64,000 nt of DNA. Source: Linnemannia elongata (lineage: Eukaryota; Mortierellomycota; Mortierellomycetes; Mortierellales; Mortierellaceae). Under the pieces are notes generated by a model. The model was not told where the DNA came from and did no database searches. It saw nothing but the letters and a program-made list of their open reading frames with translations. The position numbers and the translations under genes were made by a program. This document shows, in pieces, positions 23,934 to 47,236 of the stretch (positions are counted from its first letter, which is position 1; the number at the start of each line of letters is the position of its first letter). The stretch is taken from the NCBI GenBank assembly GCA_036320915.1, contig JAXBDG010000013.1, positions 1 through 64,000 on the forward strand, written 5' to 3'.

Positions 23934-25589
23934 ATGCTCCAAGGAAACGTCCAGTCTCAAGAACTTCTACAAGCAATCCGCTCTGTCGAAAAGCACCTCC
24001 CACCTTCCTCTATCTTACCGCCACACATAGACGAGATTTTTTATGTCGTATGCCATCCTGACCCCGAGACACAAAAGCCATATGTGTTGTGGGATGATAT
24101 CCTCACGGCTTTTGATGGTGCGATACAAGTTCGCCACAGGGCTAAGATTGTCCCTTTTCTGAAAGGGAAAGACCTCCGAATGTAAAGTGGATGCATACCA
24201 ATGGTGGTGCCAATTGCATGCCAGGAAGGCAAAAGAAAGACTGGGAAGGGTGTGAAAGGGAAGCAAAAATCACCTGCATAACCCATACCATTTTTTCTTT
24301 TCCTATTATGATTGAATCATGCTTCACATAGTCTCGAGCCTCGCAGGATTGCAGTGGTGCCGGACACTGTGCTGGATGTGGTTGTAGGCAGCAAGGAGGG
24401 CTTATCACTGACGGGTGTATCGGAAGTGACAGCGCTAGGTTTGCTGCAGGAGGATCAAAACACGGACAGAGGGGTTGCTGTCTCCCAGGAAAATACCATC
24501 AACGCCACGTCCCCTATCAGACGGAACCCAATCTACGGTCTTGTAGAGACAGCGATGGAAAAATACACTCAAATCGTTAGGCTCTTTGCATTCCACTCAA
24601 CTCGAGGGTCGCATGCAGCACCGGACGATCAACCGCAAACTATCAACAACCTTGCTGTCCCTACTTACGCAGTCAACAATGGCAACTCTCAGCTGCTAGG
24701 ACCGCAGAGTGCAACCACCAATGTTCCTATGCAGTGGGATGTGGTTCAGATGAGCATCAGTGCTAGTCATGGAGACAAGGACGCCCAGGTCGCGATTGGC
24801 GACATGTACAGGGATGGCAAAGGGGTTCCGCAAGACTATCAGGCCGCCATGGATTGGTACCTCAAGTCCGCCGATCAAGGACACGCAGCGGGACAGGAAA
24901 GAGTAGGCGCCCTCTACGGAGAAGGATTCGGTGTCCCGCAGAACTACTCAACAGCCATGGAATGGTACCTCAAGTCCGCCAAGCAAGAGTATGCAGCTGC
25001 ACAGGACCAAATCGGCGAACTCTACGACCATGGTCGCGGTGTCCCTCGGGACTATGGACGAGCGATGGAATGGTACCTCAAGGCCGCCAGTCAAGGACAC
25101 GCCACCTCACAATACAACATCGGTGTCATCTACAAGTATGGTCGAGGTGTGCCTCTGGACTACAAACAAGCGATGGAATGGTTCCTCAAGGCCGCTAGCC
25201 AAGGACATGCTCTCTCGCAACACATCATTGGATGGCTTTACAACAACGGTGAAGGTGTTCCCCAGGACTATGCACAAGCGATGGAATGGTATCTCAAGGC
25301 CGCCCAGCAAGGAGATGGTGTTGCTCAAAACAGTATCGGAACCCTCTACCACAACGGTGAAGGTGTTCCCCAGGACTATGCACAAGCGATGGACTGGTAC
25401 CTTAAGGCCGTAAGGCAAGGGAACCGGACGGCCCATTTCAACATCGGCCAGCTTTATAGCGCCGGACAAGGTGTTCCTCAGGATTATACAAAGGCCGCGG
25501 AGTGTTTCACTAAGGCTGCCGAGCTAGGAGATGATCGCGCCAAGGAAGCTTTGGAGGACTTGAAGAGAAAGGGTGTTACTGTGAACTAA
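23934..25589 (+). CDS. Sel1-like repeat protein, copy 1
   Basis: Two exons (23934-24181, 24332-25589) encode 501 residues. The N-terminal ~110 residues form a module shared with the neighbouring paralog: DEIFYV, PETQKPYVLWDDILTAF, VVPFLKG-like IVPFLKGKDLRI and LEPRRIAVVPDTVLDVVV. The intron splits the Ile codon in DLRI. A disordered linker follows. From about residue 240 there are seven Sel1-like repeats of 36 residues with the consensus GxGVPQDYxxAMEWYLKAA, ending in a helical cap. Such repeats form alpha-solenoids that bind partner proteins in signalling or ER degradation. No enzymatic domain is visible. It is the upstream member of a tandem pair. Confidence 0.88.
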
Positions 25590-26808: not shown

Positions 26809-28413
26809 ATGACCCAAGGAGACGACTCTCAGGAACAAGTGCAGGCAATGCGCTCCGTCGACATCAACCTCGCACCCAGTGCTGTTCCTCCTGCTACTCC
26901 AGACGAGATCTTCCACGTCGACACTCAACTTGACCCGGAGACGCAGAAGGAAGTCGTGCTTTGGGACGATATCCTCCAGGCATTCAGGAACGTCGTTCAA
27001 GTTCGCAATAAGATGAGGGTTGTTCCATTCCTGAAGGGGAAAGATCTGAGAATGTGAGCATAGGAAAGGACCCGCCACCCCTCTGGATGGTTATAAGAAG
27101 GAATAGAGAGAGTAAAATAACTGAAGCGACTAACACTTATCGCTTACTTCAACAAATGAACCATACGTAGTCTTGAGCCTCGCAGGATCGCCGCCGTACC
27201 GAACATTGTCTTGGATGTGGTGGTGGATAGTCCATTGATGGACAAGGGGTTCACCTCTCTCCAGGTCCAACAGCCAGCATTGCAGGCAGTGTTACCACAG
27301 GACGGCAGCACGATAAAGGTCGAGGTTGCACCCCAGGACATCATCTCAACCTCTAGTGCTACATCAACGCCCATTATTACGACTGCTACATCCACGCTCA
27401 ACGCAACATCTGTGTTCAGTGTCCCCTCCAGTGCAACCTCCGCAGTCCGACGGAGCCCAGTCTACGGTCTTGTAGAGACGGCGATGGAAAACTACACTCA
27501 CATCGACAGACCCCTTGTGTTCCCATCAGCTCGAGGTCCGCAAGCAGTGTTAGACGATCGAACACCAACTGTCAAGGATCTTCCAACTACTCGTTATCCT
27601 GACAACGATAGCAGATCTCAGTTACGAAGACCTCAAATCGCGACAACCGATGTACCCGTGGAGATGGATGTTGCCCAGACGAGCATCAGCGCCAGCCTTG
27701 GAGACAAGAACGCCCAAATCGCGCTTGGTGACATGTACAGGGATGGCAAGGGGGTCCCGCAAGACTATCAGGGCGCCATGGATTGGTACTTCAAGGCTAT
27801 CGAGCAAGGAGACGCAGTTGGACAGCAAAGAGTAGGCGTTCTCTATGAAGAAGGACTCGGTGTCTCGCAGAGCTACTCAACAGCCATGGAATGGTACCTC
27901 AAGTCTGCCGAGCAAGGGTTTGCAGCTGCTCAGTACCAAATCGGCGAACTTTATAACTATGGTCGCGGTGTTATTCGGGACTATGGGCGAGCGATGGAAT
28001 GGTATTCGAAGGCCGCACAGCAAGGAGATGCGAAATCCCAGTTCAACATCGGCAAATTCTACCACTTCGCCTTTGGTGGTCATCAGGATTGTGAACTGGC
28101 GATGGAGTGGTACCTCAAGGCCGCCGATCAAGGACATCCAGCTGCTCAACACAGTATCGGAGTTCTCTACGACTACGGCCAAGGTGTTCCCACAGACTAC
28201 GCGCAAGCCATGGAGTGGTACCTCAAGGCTGCCCAACAAGGACATGAGGCCTCACAATGCGATGTAGCTTATTTCTACAGATATGGTCGTGGTGTGGTCC
28301 AGGATTATGCAAAAGCTGTGGAATGGTATCAAAAGGCCGCCAACCAGGGAAACACATATGCCCAAACTATGCTTGAGCAATCTACCAAGGAAATGGACCC
28401 TTCACTTCGTTGA
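26809..28413 (+). CDS. Sel1-like repeat protein, copy 2
   Basis: Two exons (26809-27053, 27171-28413) encode 495 residues. Layout and intron position match copy 1 exactly: the intron again splits the codon after KGKDLR and before LEPRRIAAVP. The N-terminal module reads DEIFHV, DPETQKEVVLWDDILQAF, VVPFLKGKDLR. Six Sel1-like repeats follow. The fourth is degenerate (FAFGGHQDCELAMEWY lacks the usual GxGVPQDY), and copy 2 has one repeat fewer than copy 1. Identity is high in the N-terminal module and the first repeats, and lower in the linker. This indicates a tandem duplication followed by repeat-number change. An AATAAA signal lies near 28424. Confidence 0.88.
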
Positions 28414-41027: not shown

Positions 41028-41363
41028 CACTTAAACACTTGTGAAGGGGAGAGGGAGGCGGTGGTGAGACTTTTGGAGGGGCTATTCCTGACCTTGTCCA
41101 TGGTGGTAGCATCCTGTCATTGTAGTGAGTTGAGTGGTGGTGGAGGGGAGAGTTGAGAACGCCAATATAAAACCTTGAAGGGTCACAGAACAATTGGCGC
41201 TTAAATTACGTCACCGAGGTGAGTAATCGCTGCGCCTCGGCCACGATGAAGTAGCCGAGCTCACGTGACCCTACACTATGGAACATGCATACAGGCATGT
41301 ATATCTAACTACAGACGCTATGGAGCATCCTACATTGTGAAACTGCTATGGTCATTTCGCTTT

Positions 41364-44300
41364 TTACCCCATGTGGCTGGACGAAGAACTGAGGGCGTCA
41401 GTCATGGGATAGATGCCGGTGTCGGGGACCTCGACTGAGACGATCGAAGCGGCGCGCCTCTTTCTGGCTGTTACTGCCCCTCCGCCACCACCACCACCTG
41501 CTTCGTCTCCATTGCTGTCCATGGCCACAGCCGATGGTCCAGCTGCTTCTCCTCCTCCACCCCCACTACCGTCACCAGCAGCAACATCCATCCACGGGTA
41601 AGATCCGTCTTGACGCCGAGGCTGAAGGTAGTGCGGCCGCTGCTGGTGGATCAGGTGACCCTTGATTGCATTGTTCATGTTTTCGGAGGCCATAACATCT
41701 CGCTGAAGGAACCGTTTGCAAGTTGTGCAATAAAGGGTCCGCCAGTCCGACGTCGCACAGACAAATGCATGGCAGCGAGGGCATCGTTTGGAGGAATAAT
41801 ATTCGTTGATTCCAACCACAAGGTAGCCCAACGAACGAGCCTAAGTCAAGACAAAAAAAAAATAAAAGCAACATTAGCATGTCCCTGTAAAGAAATGACC
41901 TTGCTGAACAGTCGTTGCAACAGTATGCCCTACCAGATTGATGAAAAACGCCTGGAACGTGCCATTGAGGGCTGGTGGGCCATGAACAGCAGTGAACTTG
42001 GCTAGCCCAATCGCGATCACGACGTTTTGGTGTGGCAATCTCGGCCTACCGACAGATCCACCAATCATGTTTAGCAAACCCTCAGCAACCTTGTAGTACT
42101 CTTCCTTTCGGCAAATGTTGGAATCCCATTTGTGCTTCCAGAAGTTGGTGTTGTTGTAAAAGGTGTCCAGGTCTTCCTCCGACGCTCGACGCATTGCTAC
42201 ATACTCGCAAAACGAGGCACCCTCTCCCTTGAGAGGCGGTAGGGCGGTTTCAATCTTTTGAATAGTTCTGCCGGTAGATGGTCCAATGGTGTTCTCCCGC
42301 CGGTCCTCGAGCCAGTTGGAAAAGCTGTCTGTGGGCCGCGACACGGCCTTTCGCTTGACCACCAGATCAAAGCACCGAATCGCCAGAGACCGCCCGCCCA
42401 GCTTGCGCGCCTTCTGCCTCTTCCTCTGCCGCTTTCTATCACCAGGCTTCAGCTTGGCACGCCTTCTCTTCTTCCTCTTCTTTTGGCCGCCATCCTGACA
42501 CAGGGGACGCGCCAACGTGGTAGGGCTTTGGCCAGGTGGGAACGAAGCGGTGGCACCAACGATGCAGGAGGTACCCAAATCAAGTGACAACACCGTGACC
42601 TGACTGGGATCAGTAGCCAACAGATTCTCCACATCAGCAGCTGAGAAGAAGACATTTCGAGCTTCGGTCAGATAACGGTTTGTACCACCAATGGTCGTAA
42701 GGAGTGGGTTTGGGGCCTTGTTCTCGGGAATACGAAGGTACCGAACAGACTGGAGTTCCTTCAGCTTGTAGGCCAGCAGCTGCAGCAGACGTCCATTTGT
42801 CCGGATCGAGCCCTTCAGGACATAAACCTTGTTGTGCCAATCCCTGGGGTTAAATGTCTCAGCCCGCAGACATTTGAGGTGTTCCCGAAGCCCTTCCTTG
42901 CCGTCCTTGCCGTCCATGTCCATGACAGTTGTTGTTTTGCGATAGCCCTTGTCGTGCTTGTCTGGCGGGAGACCGACATCCGACAGGAAAGAGGTTATAA
43001 GGCGACCAGGCGTCGTCCTGGCTAACCAGTCCAAAGCGTCAGCCTGCGAGGGAACTATGGCCGGATCCTGAAAGTAGCGATCCTCGTTCATCATCCGTCG
43101 GATCTTGTCCTTGAGGGTTGGCCAAGACCAGAACAGTGGAAGCAACTGCCGCTCAGAGAAGCTAACGTAGCGAGGCGCCAGGGGTGAGAGAGGCGCAATA
43201 CGCCTCGATCCGCCGGTGGCCTTGTTCAAAAGTAGGTAGTTCTCAATGGCAGGTAGCTTGGGGTCGATTTTGGGAAGTACCGTGCCAGGTTGGACATCCG
43301 CTTGTGAGTTGATCTAATGTAGAGGGAAAGAAAAGCGTTAGTTTTGGAATATGTTTTGATGAATGCTATTCTCTTTGTATTTCGTCTGTGACAAAGCTTT
43401 GACTGACAACTTTCACATTACCTTCTTTTCAAGAGCGACCGAGCCGTTGCGATACATCTTCTTGATGGAGCAATAAAGTTGCTTGGTGGTCGACTCGAGC
43501 AACCCGTTGGTTTGGTAGGAGATGTCGCGTGGAGGAACAGAGGGCAAAGTGATGCCCAATGAGGTGGCACGTGTAAGCAGCTGGCCAACTTGCCGCTCGG
43601 CAACCGTCTTGAACTTGATCTTGCGGGAGTAGATATGCGCCAGAAGGATCTGGTAAAAGGCAAAGAAGGGTTTGTCCATTGCAGACGGCTCGGCATCATC
43701 GTCGCCTTCATCCTCCGCATCATCGTCGCCTTCATCCTCCGCATCCTCGTCGTCTTCGTCCTCCGCGTCTTCGTCGCCTTCATCCTCCGTGTCTTTGTTG
43801 CCTTCAGCCTTCGTGGGAGTGCCAGCGGAACTGCTGCTGCATGCCTGAGAATCCTGCTTGGGTTGAGGCACCATACGGATTTTGGACTCGACGACGGGAC
43901 ACAAAGAGTACAGAATGATACGGTCATTCTCGGTCAGACCGCTCTCAAAGACGGTCTCGATGAACGTGCCCAAAAACTCTTGTGCATGTCTCTTCGTCGC
44001 GCGAACTTGCCCAACAATGTCCAAAATGCAGGCAGAAACCTCTTGTTGCTGTTGTTGCTTTTGTTGTTCAGACGATGGGAGTTGATTGGCGTTGGTGGTT
44101 GTTGCTGCCGCTGCCCGCTTACTGTTAGCATTGACTGTGCCGACTTGAAGGGAAACAAGGGGATGCTCGTACATCATAGCGTTGATCAGCTGAGCCTTGT
44201 TCATCTCGTCGATCTTGGGCGGCGGCTTCTTGGCTACCTCCTTTTCCTTTTTGAGTCGCTGAGTCTCACGATGTCGCTTCTTCTTCGCCTTCTTTCCCCT

Positions 44301-45824
44301 GGCCTCAGCTGTCGACTCCCGGTACCGTGCCTCTTGCTCCGCCGTGTAGGGCTTTCGTTCATATTGCTTACAGATCGATGGCTGTTCGTGTTGCTGTGGT
44401 TCTGCGCGTGACTTGTACGAATGCCGCGGCCGGTGCACCTGTTGCGAGACTCGAGGCTGGTGAGCAGGCCGATCGATCACGCGATGCCTTCTAAATTCCC
44501 TATGCTTGCCCTGCCGATTGGGTTTAGAGTTGCTAGAGCATGTCGAAGAGTGCGGTAATAGGCAAACAGCATGTTAGACTGATCGCAAGTGATGGGAAAG
44601 CCATATCAAGGGTCATGTGAGAGAATCACATATCACTTAATGTGTTACCTCTTGCTGCTCGAGTTCCCTTGGCGCTTCTGTTCCTTGGCTCTGGCATGCT
44701 GGTCCTTGATCACCTTGTACTGATGACAGAGCAGTTCGTACGATAAGATGGATGCAGCAGAGGCCGTCAAAGGCGTCACTGACTGTGACGACGGGGACGG
44801 AACAGAGGATACGCCCGCTGGAGCAGCAATCTCCTGGGTCATTGTGGTAAACACGAGAATAGAGGCCGTGAAATCGATTCCTTCCTGACCGCGGCAGACC
44901 ACGCGTGGGCTCTCGAGATACTCCTTCACCAGGGATGGCACGTCTGATAGAGAAAGGGTCCAAAGGAGTCATGATGAGTCTGGCCATATCCACAAAGAAT
45001 AGAGGCGGTATGGGCATGCTGGCAAATTATTTGTTCTTACCTGTATCGGGTAGATCCTTTATAATGCTGTAGTTGGTGGCAATCCCCATCGATGGAATGT
45101 TCTTGTTCTGGTCGTTACTCGAGACGCATGCCAGTGCAGTAAGCTTGGTGGTTGACAGTCGTATCTGGGCCAGCACCGCCTCTCTACTATATTCTAAGAC
45201 CTTGACGTCGTCCCACTTGCCCACAGGACGCCAGATCGTTGTAACTGAATCGCAAGCGAAAAAGTCCGAGTCTTGAGTCAGAACAACGTCTTTGAGTTGG
45301 CACTCTGCAGCGATATCAATGTCGGCCTCGGTCCTGCAAAGGTGCGCATCGAGCTCTTGAGCCTGCAGAAAATGGACGAAGTCTTCCCGATCTTGAAGAG
45401 ACCACTTGAATCCTCCACGGAGACTCCTCTCTACATTCTTGAACATCTGCCTGGTGGGCGGTTTGCCTTGATTGATGCGGTTCCCGAGCGTCTCAATGGC
45501 AACCTTGGCATTCTTGAGGGCCTTAGCTCGCTTCTCGTTTCGCTCACGGTGAGTCTCCTTCTTCTCGAGAGCAGGGGCGCCGTCGACATAGAACACCATG
45601 TGGGAGGGGTCGCCGTATTTCTTGAGATGCTCGAATAGGATAGCTTGCGCCTTTGTTTTGTCGTCTGCATGCTTGGTGTAGATTCCGCGAATTTTGGTAA
45701 AGAAAGACAAAACATCCACGCGAATAATGGCGTCGTCAGGCAGGTGGTGGTGCATGGGGTGACGAAGCGTGGGATGGTAGCCTTTCTTCTTGCGGAGCCA
45801 AGGATAGAACCCCTTCAGTCCCAT
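41364..45824 (-). CDS. XPG/FEN1-type nuclease fused to Fanzor (TnpB-like RuvC) nuclease
   Basis: Five exons (45824-45041, 44943-44649, 44532-43422, 43313-41934, 41840-41364) join in phase to 1348 residues. Residues 1-270 are an XPG/FEN1 core: start MGLKGFYPWL, then acidic residues Asp37, Asp81 (YVDGAP), Glu166 and Asp168 (TEAD), Asp185 and Asp187 (TQDSDFF) and Asp238 (SSND) before a helix-hairpin-like segment, matching the seven metal ligands of FEN1. Residues ~360-730 are basic, then Gln-rich, then an acidic repeat (~608-645). Residues 731-1348 are Fanzor-like: RuvC-I Asp975 (SLDLGTS), a basic NLS-like tract (1008-1038), VVIAIGLAKF (1161-1170) without the canonical RuvC-II Glu, NEYYSSKRCP with Glu1203, a CxxC...CxxC zinc ribbon (Cys1210, 1213, 1228, 1231) and RuvC-III Asp1238 (QRDVMASENM). 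Fanzors are eukaryotic RNA-guided DNA nucleases. The last donor (GTAGGG) was chosen by phase and homology. Confidence 0.82.
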
Positions 45825-46527
45825 ATTGGCTAGTGGCGGATGAGATGAGAGTGGGGGTGATGTGAGGAATTGAGAAGAGGGGAACGATGGGTGAAGCTGT
45901 TGGGACAAGGGTGATTGAGTGAGGATCATGCGTTTAAGGGGCCGCGACGGCGAGAAAAGCGTTATAGGCCAGATAACGGAAGCTTATGTAACTGTGCATG
46001 GAAGTTTGCTTTTGTGGAGACTTTACTCTCGTGCAAGAGTTAACCAGTTGTGATATCAATCTAATTGACTGTGGAGAATAGTATTTCACCGCATATCCGT
46101 CTTCACCTTCAAAAAGCATCGGGCAGAAGAATGAGAACGAGAGAAGTCAGAACGGGAGGTCGCAAACACCTTGGCGTTCGAGGCTAGCGAGAACAAGCGC
46201 TGATCACTGTCGAAGTATTCCATGAGATAAGAGCCCGAAAAAAGAGAAGTGTACCTCCAATACATGTAAACCGTGGTGACAGGACTTGAGCACGGATCAG
46301 GTGCTATTTTTATAGCTTTCATCCTTCGTGTGATATGAATAAAGTCAACTCATTCTTTTCGTTACTCCCCGCACTCCCACTTAACAGCTTGGAGTCAAAG
46401 GTCTCAACGCAGTGGCTGCCGGCCGTATATATTAGTGAATAGAGCGATATAAAATATGTCAAATCAACCGAAAACTTGAGTCCATCAAATGAGTTGTCAA
46501 AGAGCTATTTTTTAGAGGGCTGAAAAG
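45825..46527. promoter_or_regulatory. Upstream region of the XPG-Fanzor gene
   Basis: The ~100 bases before the ATG are C/T-rich on the sense (minus) strand, the usual leader signature. Farther upstream only short frames occur. It ends at the hAT-type MITE. Confidence 0.45.
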
Positions 46528-46679
46528 CAGTGTTTCTCAAAATTATTCGACTCTCATTCGACTTTTATTCGACCCGTGCTAGGCCAATGTAACCGTCGAA
46601 TCGAATTTCGCATTCGATTCGACGGTTACATTGGCCTAGCACGGGTCGAATGAGAGTCGAATAATTTTGAGAAACACTG
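46528..46679. mobile_element. Foldback hAT-type MITE with 8-bp target duplication
   Basis: A 152-bp element that is one long inverted repeat. The left arm (46528-46606) and right arm (46612-46679) match perfectly, apart from an 11-nt insertion (TTTTATTCGAC) in the left arm at about 46562-46572, with a 5-nt loop TTCGC. The ends are CAGTGTTTCTCAAA and its complement, the classic hAT terminal sequence. It is flanked on both sides by CTGAAAAG (46520-46527 and 46680-46687), an exact 8-bp target duplication as hAT transposases make. There is no coding capacity, so it needs a transposase in trans. The near-perfect arms and duplication indicate a fairly recent insertion. Confidence 0.92.
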
Positions 46680-46689
46680 CTGAAAAGAG

Positions 46690-46911
46690 ACAGCTGATTT
46701 ATTGGCCAATGAGGGCGAGAATGTCCAAGCATTTGGGGACGGCGAGACAGAGTTAATGACTCTTCTTGAGAAGATGTACCATGTGCTTGAGGCTAAAAAG
46801 AAAAGAAAGTGCTCGTTACTGTACCTCCAAGAAACAGTTGCTTTGATACACAGCGCCTATCTTCAAGTCAAAGGCCCTAATGAGAGCAGTGCTTTGCGAA
46901 AATGCCAGTGA
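46690..46911 (+). pseudogene. C-terminal fragment of an unknown gene next to the MITE
   Basis: A frame open from about 46690 to the stop at 46909-46911 reads like a real protein tail (ETELMTLLEKMYHVLEAKKK, LLYLQETVALIHSAYLQVKG). There is no convincing start or upstream exon, and the MITE sits immediately upstream. The stop TGA is overlapped by AATAAA (46911-46916), the same stop/poly(A) arrangement as the next gene downstream, so it may be the 3' end of a related, broken gene. No family recognised. Confidence 0.4.
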
Positions 46912-47236
46912 ATAAATGTATTGTGTCAAATGATCTCATTGTGCCTATTTTCATTGTATTATGGTGTCAATTGACTGTAAAAATTAATCCATATTAGGAA
47001 AGATTTCATGGTTAGCTTCAGCCAATAAGAGAATTATGGCGTCCATTGTCCTGTACCCCCTTGAAATAGTGACGTATTGGTGGCCAATGCAATCGCATTA
47101 GCTGTCAATTTAAAATTAGAGTTGAGCTTGCGCCTGGCAGGTCTCAAAGCAAGTTCGTTCTTTCCATGGCGAAACAATACCCTCAGGGCCTCAACTCATT
47201 CCCTCGTCGGGCAACAACGCTGGACGCTGAATCGCG

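Follow-up and report, generated by a model that had tools for sequence, protein, structure and literature searches.

A predicted two-nuclease protein of Linnemannia elongata: an XPG/FEN-family 5' nuclease and a Fanzor1 nuclease in one chain, encoded by a mobile element

A gene on the minus strand of a 64,000-nt stretch of Linnemannia elongata DNA (contig JAXBDG010000013.1, positions 1 to 64,000; “the window” below) was confirmed, from its sequence and from predicted folds, to encode an XPG/FEN-family 5' nuclease and a Fanzor1 nuclease in a single chain. It was the sole large gene of a mobile element of 5878 bp (41181..47058, minus strand), bounded by terminal inverted repeats (TIRs) of about 20 bp. 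We propose, with a probability of about 0.6, that in this TIR-flanked element of the Mortierellaceae the Fanzor would be guided by the right flank, would use ACGTCAC as target-adjacent motif (TAM) and would re-cut the element's own empty site, with the XPG domain processing the DNA. A sequence-only reading had already placed both nucleases in one gene and one chain; that part stood, with the fusion kept across nine genera, but the mobile-element setting (inverted repeats, duplications, target motif and structured right end) had been missed.

The gene model was drawn from genomic sequence (splice sites, reading frame and homologs). Splicing of the minus-strand exons 45824-45041, 44943-44649, 44532-43422, 43313-41934 and 41840-41364 gave 4047 nt (1348 amino acids plus a stop) without internal stops, and all 4 introns (97, 116, 108 and 93 nt) were GT...AG; the five exons, the phase kept over four introns and the 1349 codons including the stop, as first read, were reproduced exactly. 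Exon 1 (residues 1-261) carried the XPG/FEN nuclease with all seven ligands, as judged from a PDB sequence search, a profile and alignments; exon 2, the end of the XPG fold (about residue 306) and a linker; exon 3, linker, the start of the Fanzor part near residue 483 and an acidic run from residue 609; exon 4, the Fanzor WED/REC part and RuvC-I (D975); and exon 5, E1203, the zinc ribbon, RuvC-III (D1238) and a low-complexity tail, with PF07282 at residues 1182-1244.

Comparison of sequences indicated that the fusion was not an accident of the gene model. In the L. elongata genome (51.1 Mb, 32 contigs), at least 39 matches to the XPG part and at least 54 to TNB were found, both counts being lower bounds. 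Thirty-five of the 39 listed XPG matches had a same-strand TNB (Fanzor) match 3.3-4.9 kb on (expected: 0.08); two of these 35 were pieces of one copy, so that 34 TNB matches were paired and 20 of the 54 listed had no detectable XPG part. Copy B (L076) aligned with the window protein at 29% identity over 1346 columns, junction included, and the intron phases (1, 2, 0, 0) were identical in both; the order XPG-then-Fanzor was also kept in L077, a more distant, broken copy. The contrary case raised by the sequence-only reading, halves that are always separate genes with a junction that cannot be aligned, was looked for and did not occur.

The protein search that this reading had called for also recovered the fusion in other genomes. 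Three family-aimed searches, with about 8000 candidates scored in each, retrieved 99 proteins, all from Mortierellaceae: 74 matched the XPG profile, 56 the TNB profile and 40 both, shares that are not to be read as frequencies. The 40 belonged to nine genera (Linnemannia, Dissophora, Mortierella, Podila, Haplosporangium, Gryganskiella, Entomortierella, Benniella and Actinomortierella); 33 covered at least 150 XPG residues, and the other 7 covered fewer because of partial gene models or truncation. Precomputed domain tables listed both XPG_I and TNB for P0017, P0021, P0074 and P0081. The fusion was not found outside Mortierellaceae, a weak negative since about 8000 candidates were scored per search, and among 50 viral matches listed no fusion was recognised, flap nucleases and Fanzor-type “transposases” being separate. 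Two adjacent genes read as one might still be suspected, as the model came from the genome itself and 20 listed Fanzor matches stood without an XPG part; collinearity across the junction, identical intron phases, the pairing of 35 of the 39 listed XPG matches and the single proteins given by other annotations (four with both Pfam domains precomputed) make such an artefact exceedingly improbable.

The unpaired TNB matches included C2:8289, C32:6152, C6:6338 and C3:12111, and several lay no more than about 15 kb from contig ends; the 20 could form a separate, subtelomeric Fanzor family.

In predicted models compared with structures, the N-terminal part showed an XPG/FEN1/EXO1 fold over about residues 2-306, and it shared with the XPG/Rad2/FEN1/EXO1 family the seven acidic ligands and an N-terminal MG; enzymes of this family cut at single/double-strand junctions. 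It differed from them in being fused to an RNA-guided nuclease, in lying on a mobile element and in its low sequence similarity (15% over the fold for the best fold match). A PDB sequence search for the window protein gave 6vbh (E 0.0058) and a profile search gave Rad2 (E 1.1e-8). For the window protein, Pfam returned TNB as the sole domain above cut-off, a DNA_pol_phi match below cut-off in the charged middle and no XPG match; 16 of 31 members matched XPG_I at E<=0.01, and among seven fusion proteins P0021 alone exceeded the curated XPG_I cut-off (28.1 bits vs. 24.9, TNB in the same chain). In NCBIfam, P0017 matched guided_TnpB (2.8e-9) and FEN1 (4.8e-4), both under the curated cut-offs, and the window-type protein P0001 (Linnemannia elongata, F5H01DRAFT_405658), taken as a paralog of the window gene and not as an independent species, gave FEN1 alone (E 0.26).

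The seven acidic ligands named earlier (D37, D81, E166, D168, D185, D187 and D238) were unchanged across an alignment of 14 first exons, one from the window and 13 from loci chosen among 30 paralogous ones. In 42 fusion sequences (window, copy B and 40 database proteins) there were, gaps aside, 1 exception at E166, 4 at D185, 2 at D238 and 0 at the other four positions, each position having 1 to 17 gapped rows, of which many reflect incomplete gene models. The ratio of nonsynonymous to synonymous substitution rates (dN/dS) between the window copy and L044 was 0.13 in exon 1 (XPG), 0.23 in exon 2, 0.27 in exon 3, 0.17 in exon 4 (RuvC) and 0.08 in the TNB part; the values of the XPG and RuvC exons indicate that both halves are under constraint. 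An XPG half that is catalytically idle and acts as a DNA-junction-binding module would fit the few departures at E166, D185 or D238, and L077, which by eye reads Q at the first Glu position. Ligands invariant in the 14 paralogs and kept in nearly all lettered rows of the larger set, together with the dN/dS of the XPG exon, make this very unlikely.

Models were made for two homologs, P0006 and P0014, the latter an L. elongata protein without most of the XPG part. The Fanzor1 fold (WED, REC, RuvC and zinc ribbon) was found in the P0014 model; the top seven rows of the structure search were Fanzor1, which ranked ahead of Fanzor2. The structure prediction proposed as a check thus agreed with the earlier reading, the homolog models showing an XPG/FEN1/EXO1 fold N-terminally and a Fanzor1 fold from about residue 483. 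RuvC-I, zinc ribbon and RuvC-III, previously assigned to the C-terminal part, were present as D975, E1203, four zinc cysteines and D1238. The Fanzor motif D-X(125,275)-[TS][TS]XX-[C4 zinc finger]-X(5,50)-RD, from the available part of PMC3627910, was satisfied by the window protein, with D975 as one of the matching starts, and by copy B, the spacing within the zinc finger being our choice. A rearranged RuvC-II glutamate six residues ahead of the first CxxC, which marks Fanzor according to the sections consulted of PMC10711439, was present with its CxxC spacing at 1203-1238 in the window protein (subfamily A) and at 1190-1224 in copy B; a slightly wider pattern was matched by 29 of the 40 database fusion proteins.

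Several points limit this assignment: model confidence was moderate (mean pLDDT, the predicted local distance difference test, 63 and 65), the SpuFz match in the P0006 model was long but loose (template modelling score 0.14/0.22, root-mean-square deviation 27.9), and a 33-sequence profile matched no solved Fanzor at E<=1, so that the Fanzor half must be regarded as divergent. The region between the two folds had largely low model confidence. By sequence, the Fanzor exons gave against the PDB a weak TnpB-like match (9b0l, E 1.1) ranked below two kelch proteins; the assignment was decided by the fold search.

The ends of the element were placed where L040-L043, which are paralogs, and L044, an 83% copy, ceased to resemble the window copy, within a base or two of 47058 and 41181, with TIR matches at both: a left TIR GGGTACAGGACAATGGACGC (47039..47058, minus strand) and a right TIR with the reverse complement GGTCACAGAACAATTGGCGC (41181..41200, minus strand). 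The 20-base TIR pattern, one mismatch allowed, had 67 genome matches vs. 14 for the reversed control, and many of them flanked element copies, in subfamilies A and B alike. The window copy lay between a left target site duplication TTTCAAGG (47059..47066, minus strand), 7/8 like the right one, and a right duplication CTTCAAGG (41173..41180, minus strand), read in position and predicted to supply the first bases of the guide. Ten of the 17 copies with both flanks read had exact 8-bp duplications and one an exact 9-bp duplication. Eight subfamily B elements measured 4.68-4.69 kb (five) or 5.07-5.09 kb (three), a length filled by the fusion gene. The B copies at C28 and C7 each differed from that at C5 by one nonsynonymous and zero synonymous changes over 257 codons of exon 1; three near-identical copies with exact, differing duplications indicate that the family moved recently.

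Open reading frames (ORFs) of at least 100 amino acids outside the fusion gene and the ORFs overlapping its exons were absent from the window copy and from L076. No transposase was recognised in the element, and no partner element among the TIR matches examined. The 8-bp duplication fits a hAT-type transposon, but the element encodes no hAT transposase and was not filed as hAT. A candidate autonomous partner, the TIR pair at C9:199857-207610 (in L075, C9:199700-207800), was rejected: it was an internally deleted A copy carrying pogo/Tc1-like and hAT-like transposons (families named by eye).

Eight B copies shared the left 200 bp (82-93% identity), five of these over roughly the first 150 bp; this similarity of the non-coding left end (46859-47058) stood beside A and B proteins 29% identical, and may reflect recombination or a strongly constrained cis region. 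The A right end (183 bp), used as query, found A copies and short fragments only. At L041, around 948 (C31:23847), a 42-bp stretch 90% like the element right end adjoined the copy at the TGACGTAA motif of that stretch, and the element may thus target its own end. At L039 360-791 (C1), an inverted 432-bp right-end copy abutted the left end of an element copy.

Most left flanks read in the order ACGTCAC, two free bases, duplication; in the window the motif, the predicted TAM, occupied 47069..47075 (minus strand, from left-flank comparison), 2 nt before the duplication. The best 9-mer match to TGACGTCAC was at -19 in 14 of 18 left flanks and at -20 in 2 (chance of 14 of 18 at one given position about 3e-25, equal base use assumed). 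Columns -17 to -11 carried 0.77-1.35 bits, the rest of the last 30 columns no more than 0.54, and 22 right flanks had no motif at a fixed position. A motif at near-constant spacing on the left, with none on the right, indicates insertion anchored at the motif in one orientation.

The same preference might belong to a host factor or a transposase, ACGTCAC not being a TAM and the Fanzor having another role, e.g. cutting rival copies. The motif is a known transcription-factor palindrome, TGACGTCA being the cyclic-AMP response element (CRE) bound by basic leucine zipper (bZIP) factors, and an ORF has its first ATG about 345 bp downstream of the window copy, which by itself does not point to a promoter. 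From tethering one would not expect a single orientation and a spacing nearly exact to the base in 16 of 18 copies; the 22 right flanks had no motif at a fixed position. We consider this explanation unlikely.

The last 91 nt of the element on the gene strand (41181..41271, minus strand) are predicted, by folding and covariation, to form a guide-RNA-like (reRNA/omegaRNA) scaffold. The predicted fold (-45.9 kcal/mol, z -6.2) was a three-way junction closed by a stem in which the right TIR pairs with an arm upstream of it, and the scaffold stopped at the element edge. Of 130 windows taken along the element, this segment ranked second by folding, after a foldback miniature inverted-repeat transposable element (MITE). 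Covariation was read from 9 right ends, selected from 21 as distinct variants, with at least one distinct variant (A_C16) left out: 95% of cells were paired and 5 of 34 pairs were changed on both sides (13 cells), whereas slid controls gave 0-1 such pairs and 0-3 such cells. None of 500 shuffles reached the observed cells changed on both sides, cells paired or covariation score, and Rfam gave no family at gathering score for the right end. According to the sections consulted, Fanzor1 guide RNAs take in TIR and duplication and extend about 15 nt beyond (PMC10711439), and SPu-1 has a conserved CA at left, with TAMs such as CATA and TTAAN (PMC10432273).

From these features we infer cutting, a guide, a TAM and a role for the XPG domain, as follows. 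The right end of the transcript would become the guide RNA and, as the scaffold stops at the element edge, the guide would consist of the duplication and the right flank. ACGTCAC(NN) in the left flank would act as TAM: since the duplication varies, it is expected to form the beginning of the guide, with ACGTCAC and the two free bases that follow as the TAM. With the scaffold from the right end, the guide from the right flank and the TAM in the left flank, the ribonucleoprotein (RNP) would recognise the joined, element-free site, its predicted cleavage substrate being ACGTCACNN-target DNA. The RNP would cut this empty site and repair from the element-bearing copy would restore the element; in TnpB retention, likewise, the element-free site is cut and repaired from the element-bearing copy. 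The XPG domain may work at the R-loop junction, or it may process the 5' flaps or 5' ends that the cut leaves, and could in this way tilt repair from simple rejoining towards copying. Insertion would depend on a transposase supplied in trans, as none was recognised in the element.

Other observations count against this proposal. Exact duplications were missing in 6 of the 17 copies (the window copy matched at 7 of 8), and the motif was not at its place in 2 of the 18 left flanks; of two further left ends, one had a sequence like the motif shifted 2 nt and one had no motif. The proposal has to allow for 2 nt between the motif and the duplication, and the motif could belong to a transposase or host factor. 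The A right end folded well as its complement too (z -4.3), the two B right ends folded more weakly (z -2.4 and -3.3), and the B right end formed a long stem and not three arms, helix 2 being absent. The covariation signal rested mainly on the single A-B split; five pairs changed on both sides were reached by 56 of the 500 shuffles, and the further pair types by 452. Finally, Fanzor1 scaffolds include the duplication in the available text of PMC10711439; here the duplication is a variable 8 bp, and a guide starting at it is an assumption.

A transposon without a conventional transposase is a doubtful alternative: the two-nuclease protein (RuvC plus XPG) would itself spread and protect the element, excising it and, with neither a DDE nor a tyrosine/serine recombinase, inserting it at ACGTCAC in a single orientation, with a guide from the site entered. 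The fusion gene fills the B element, three B copies almost identical in exon 1 lie at different sites with exact duplications, and a single orientation to the motif is not what we would expect of a symmetric transposase complex. No TIR element of other gene content was seen among the matches examined, but the TIR matches were read only in part, those unread being mostly one-mismatch. No integrase-like domain was recognised in the protein, in which the inter-fold stretch is largely of low confidence. In the parts of the sources consulted, a Fanzor-only TIR element is termed non-autonomous (PMC10711439) and Fanzor cuts fall at about 9-21 nt (PMC10432273), compared with insertion 2-10 nt past the motif here. 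Taken with the points in its favour, these leave a protein that moves its own element quite unlikely.

The proposed RNA-guided, XPG-carrying Fanzor element has relatives among known systems. Fanzors are related to TnpB and Cas12, occur in eukaryotes and are studied as genome editors; some Academ transposons also carry an XPG nuclease. The Fanzor1 TIR elements (SpuFz1/SPu-1, PpFz1 and GtFz1) share the Fanzor1 fold, the rearranged RuvC glutamate, the C4 zinc ribbon and a structured right end, but the window protein has, compared with these nucleases, about 480 extra N-terminal residues holding the XPG nuclease. SPu-1, as far as the available text describes it, is likewise a TIR element with the gene alone, but has TA and CATA in place of the 8-bp duplications and ACGTCAC motif found here. 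The Fanzor1 elements of Rhizopus, Phycomyces and Mucor (MuDR-like) are TIR elements of early-diverging fungi that encode no transposase; they differ in 9-bp duplications and MuDR-like TIRs, and a flap nuclease is not mentioned in the part consulted (PMC3627910). KolobokP transposons add a sequence-finding nuclease to a TIR transposon, but in the sections available they encode a DDD/E transposase and a His-Me finger homing nuclease, not XPG and apparently not RNA-guided (PMC9587614).

The sequence-only reading had left the novelty of the fusion to be checked, and no description of an XPG/flap-nuclease-Fanzor fusion was found in the literature searched, which left most subscription papers outside its coverage; the fusion is likely new in print. 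The word “fusion” was absent from the texts of PMC3627910, PMC10711439, PMC10432273 and PMC11423790, no second nuclease in a Fanzor chain was described in the portions of the Fanzor literature consulted, and “Fanzor flap endonuclease homologs” was, in the available text of PMC11071296, applied loosely to viral proteins. That a natural fusion is kept by purifying selection and occurs in many species suggests that it is important to these elements how the cut or the R-loop is processed. As a single enzyme, the fusion could also yield a repair outcome different from what a simple RNA-guided cut gives. As predicted TAM, guide and insertion site are all legible in the same copies, the part that Fanzor plays in mobile elements of eukaryotes becomes open to testing.

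Two further features of the window were noted. The 152-bp foldback MITE (CAGTG...CACTG; 46528..46679, no strand assigned), which does not belong to the system, had an 8-bp duplication CTTTTCAG, lay in the leader of the window copy and was absent from L040. Two plus-strand ORFs (24312-25586 and 27160-28410) had alike starts (LEPRRIA.VP..VLDVVV) and are probably paralogs.

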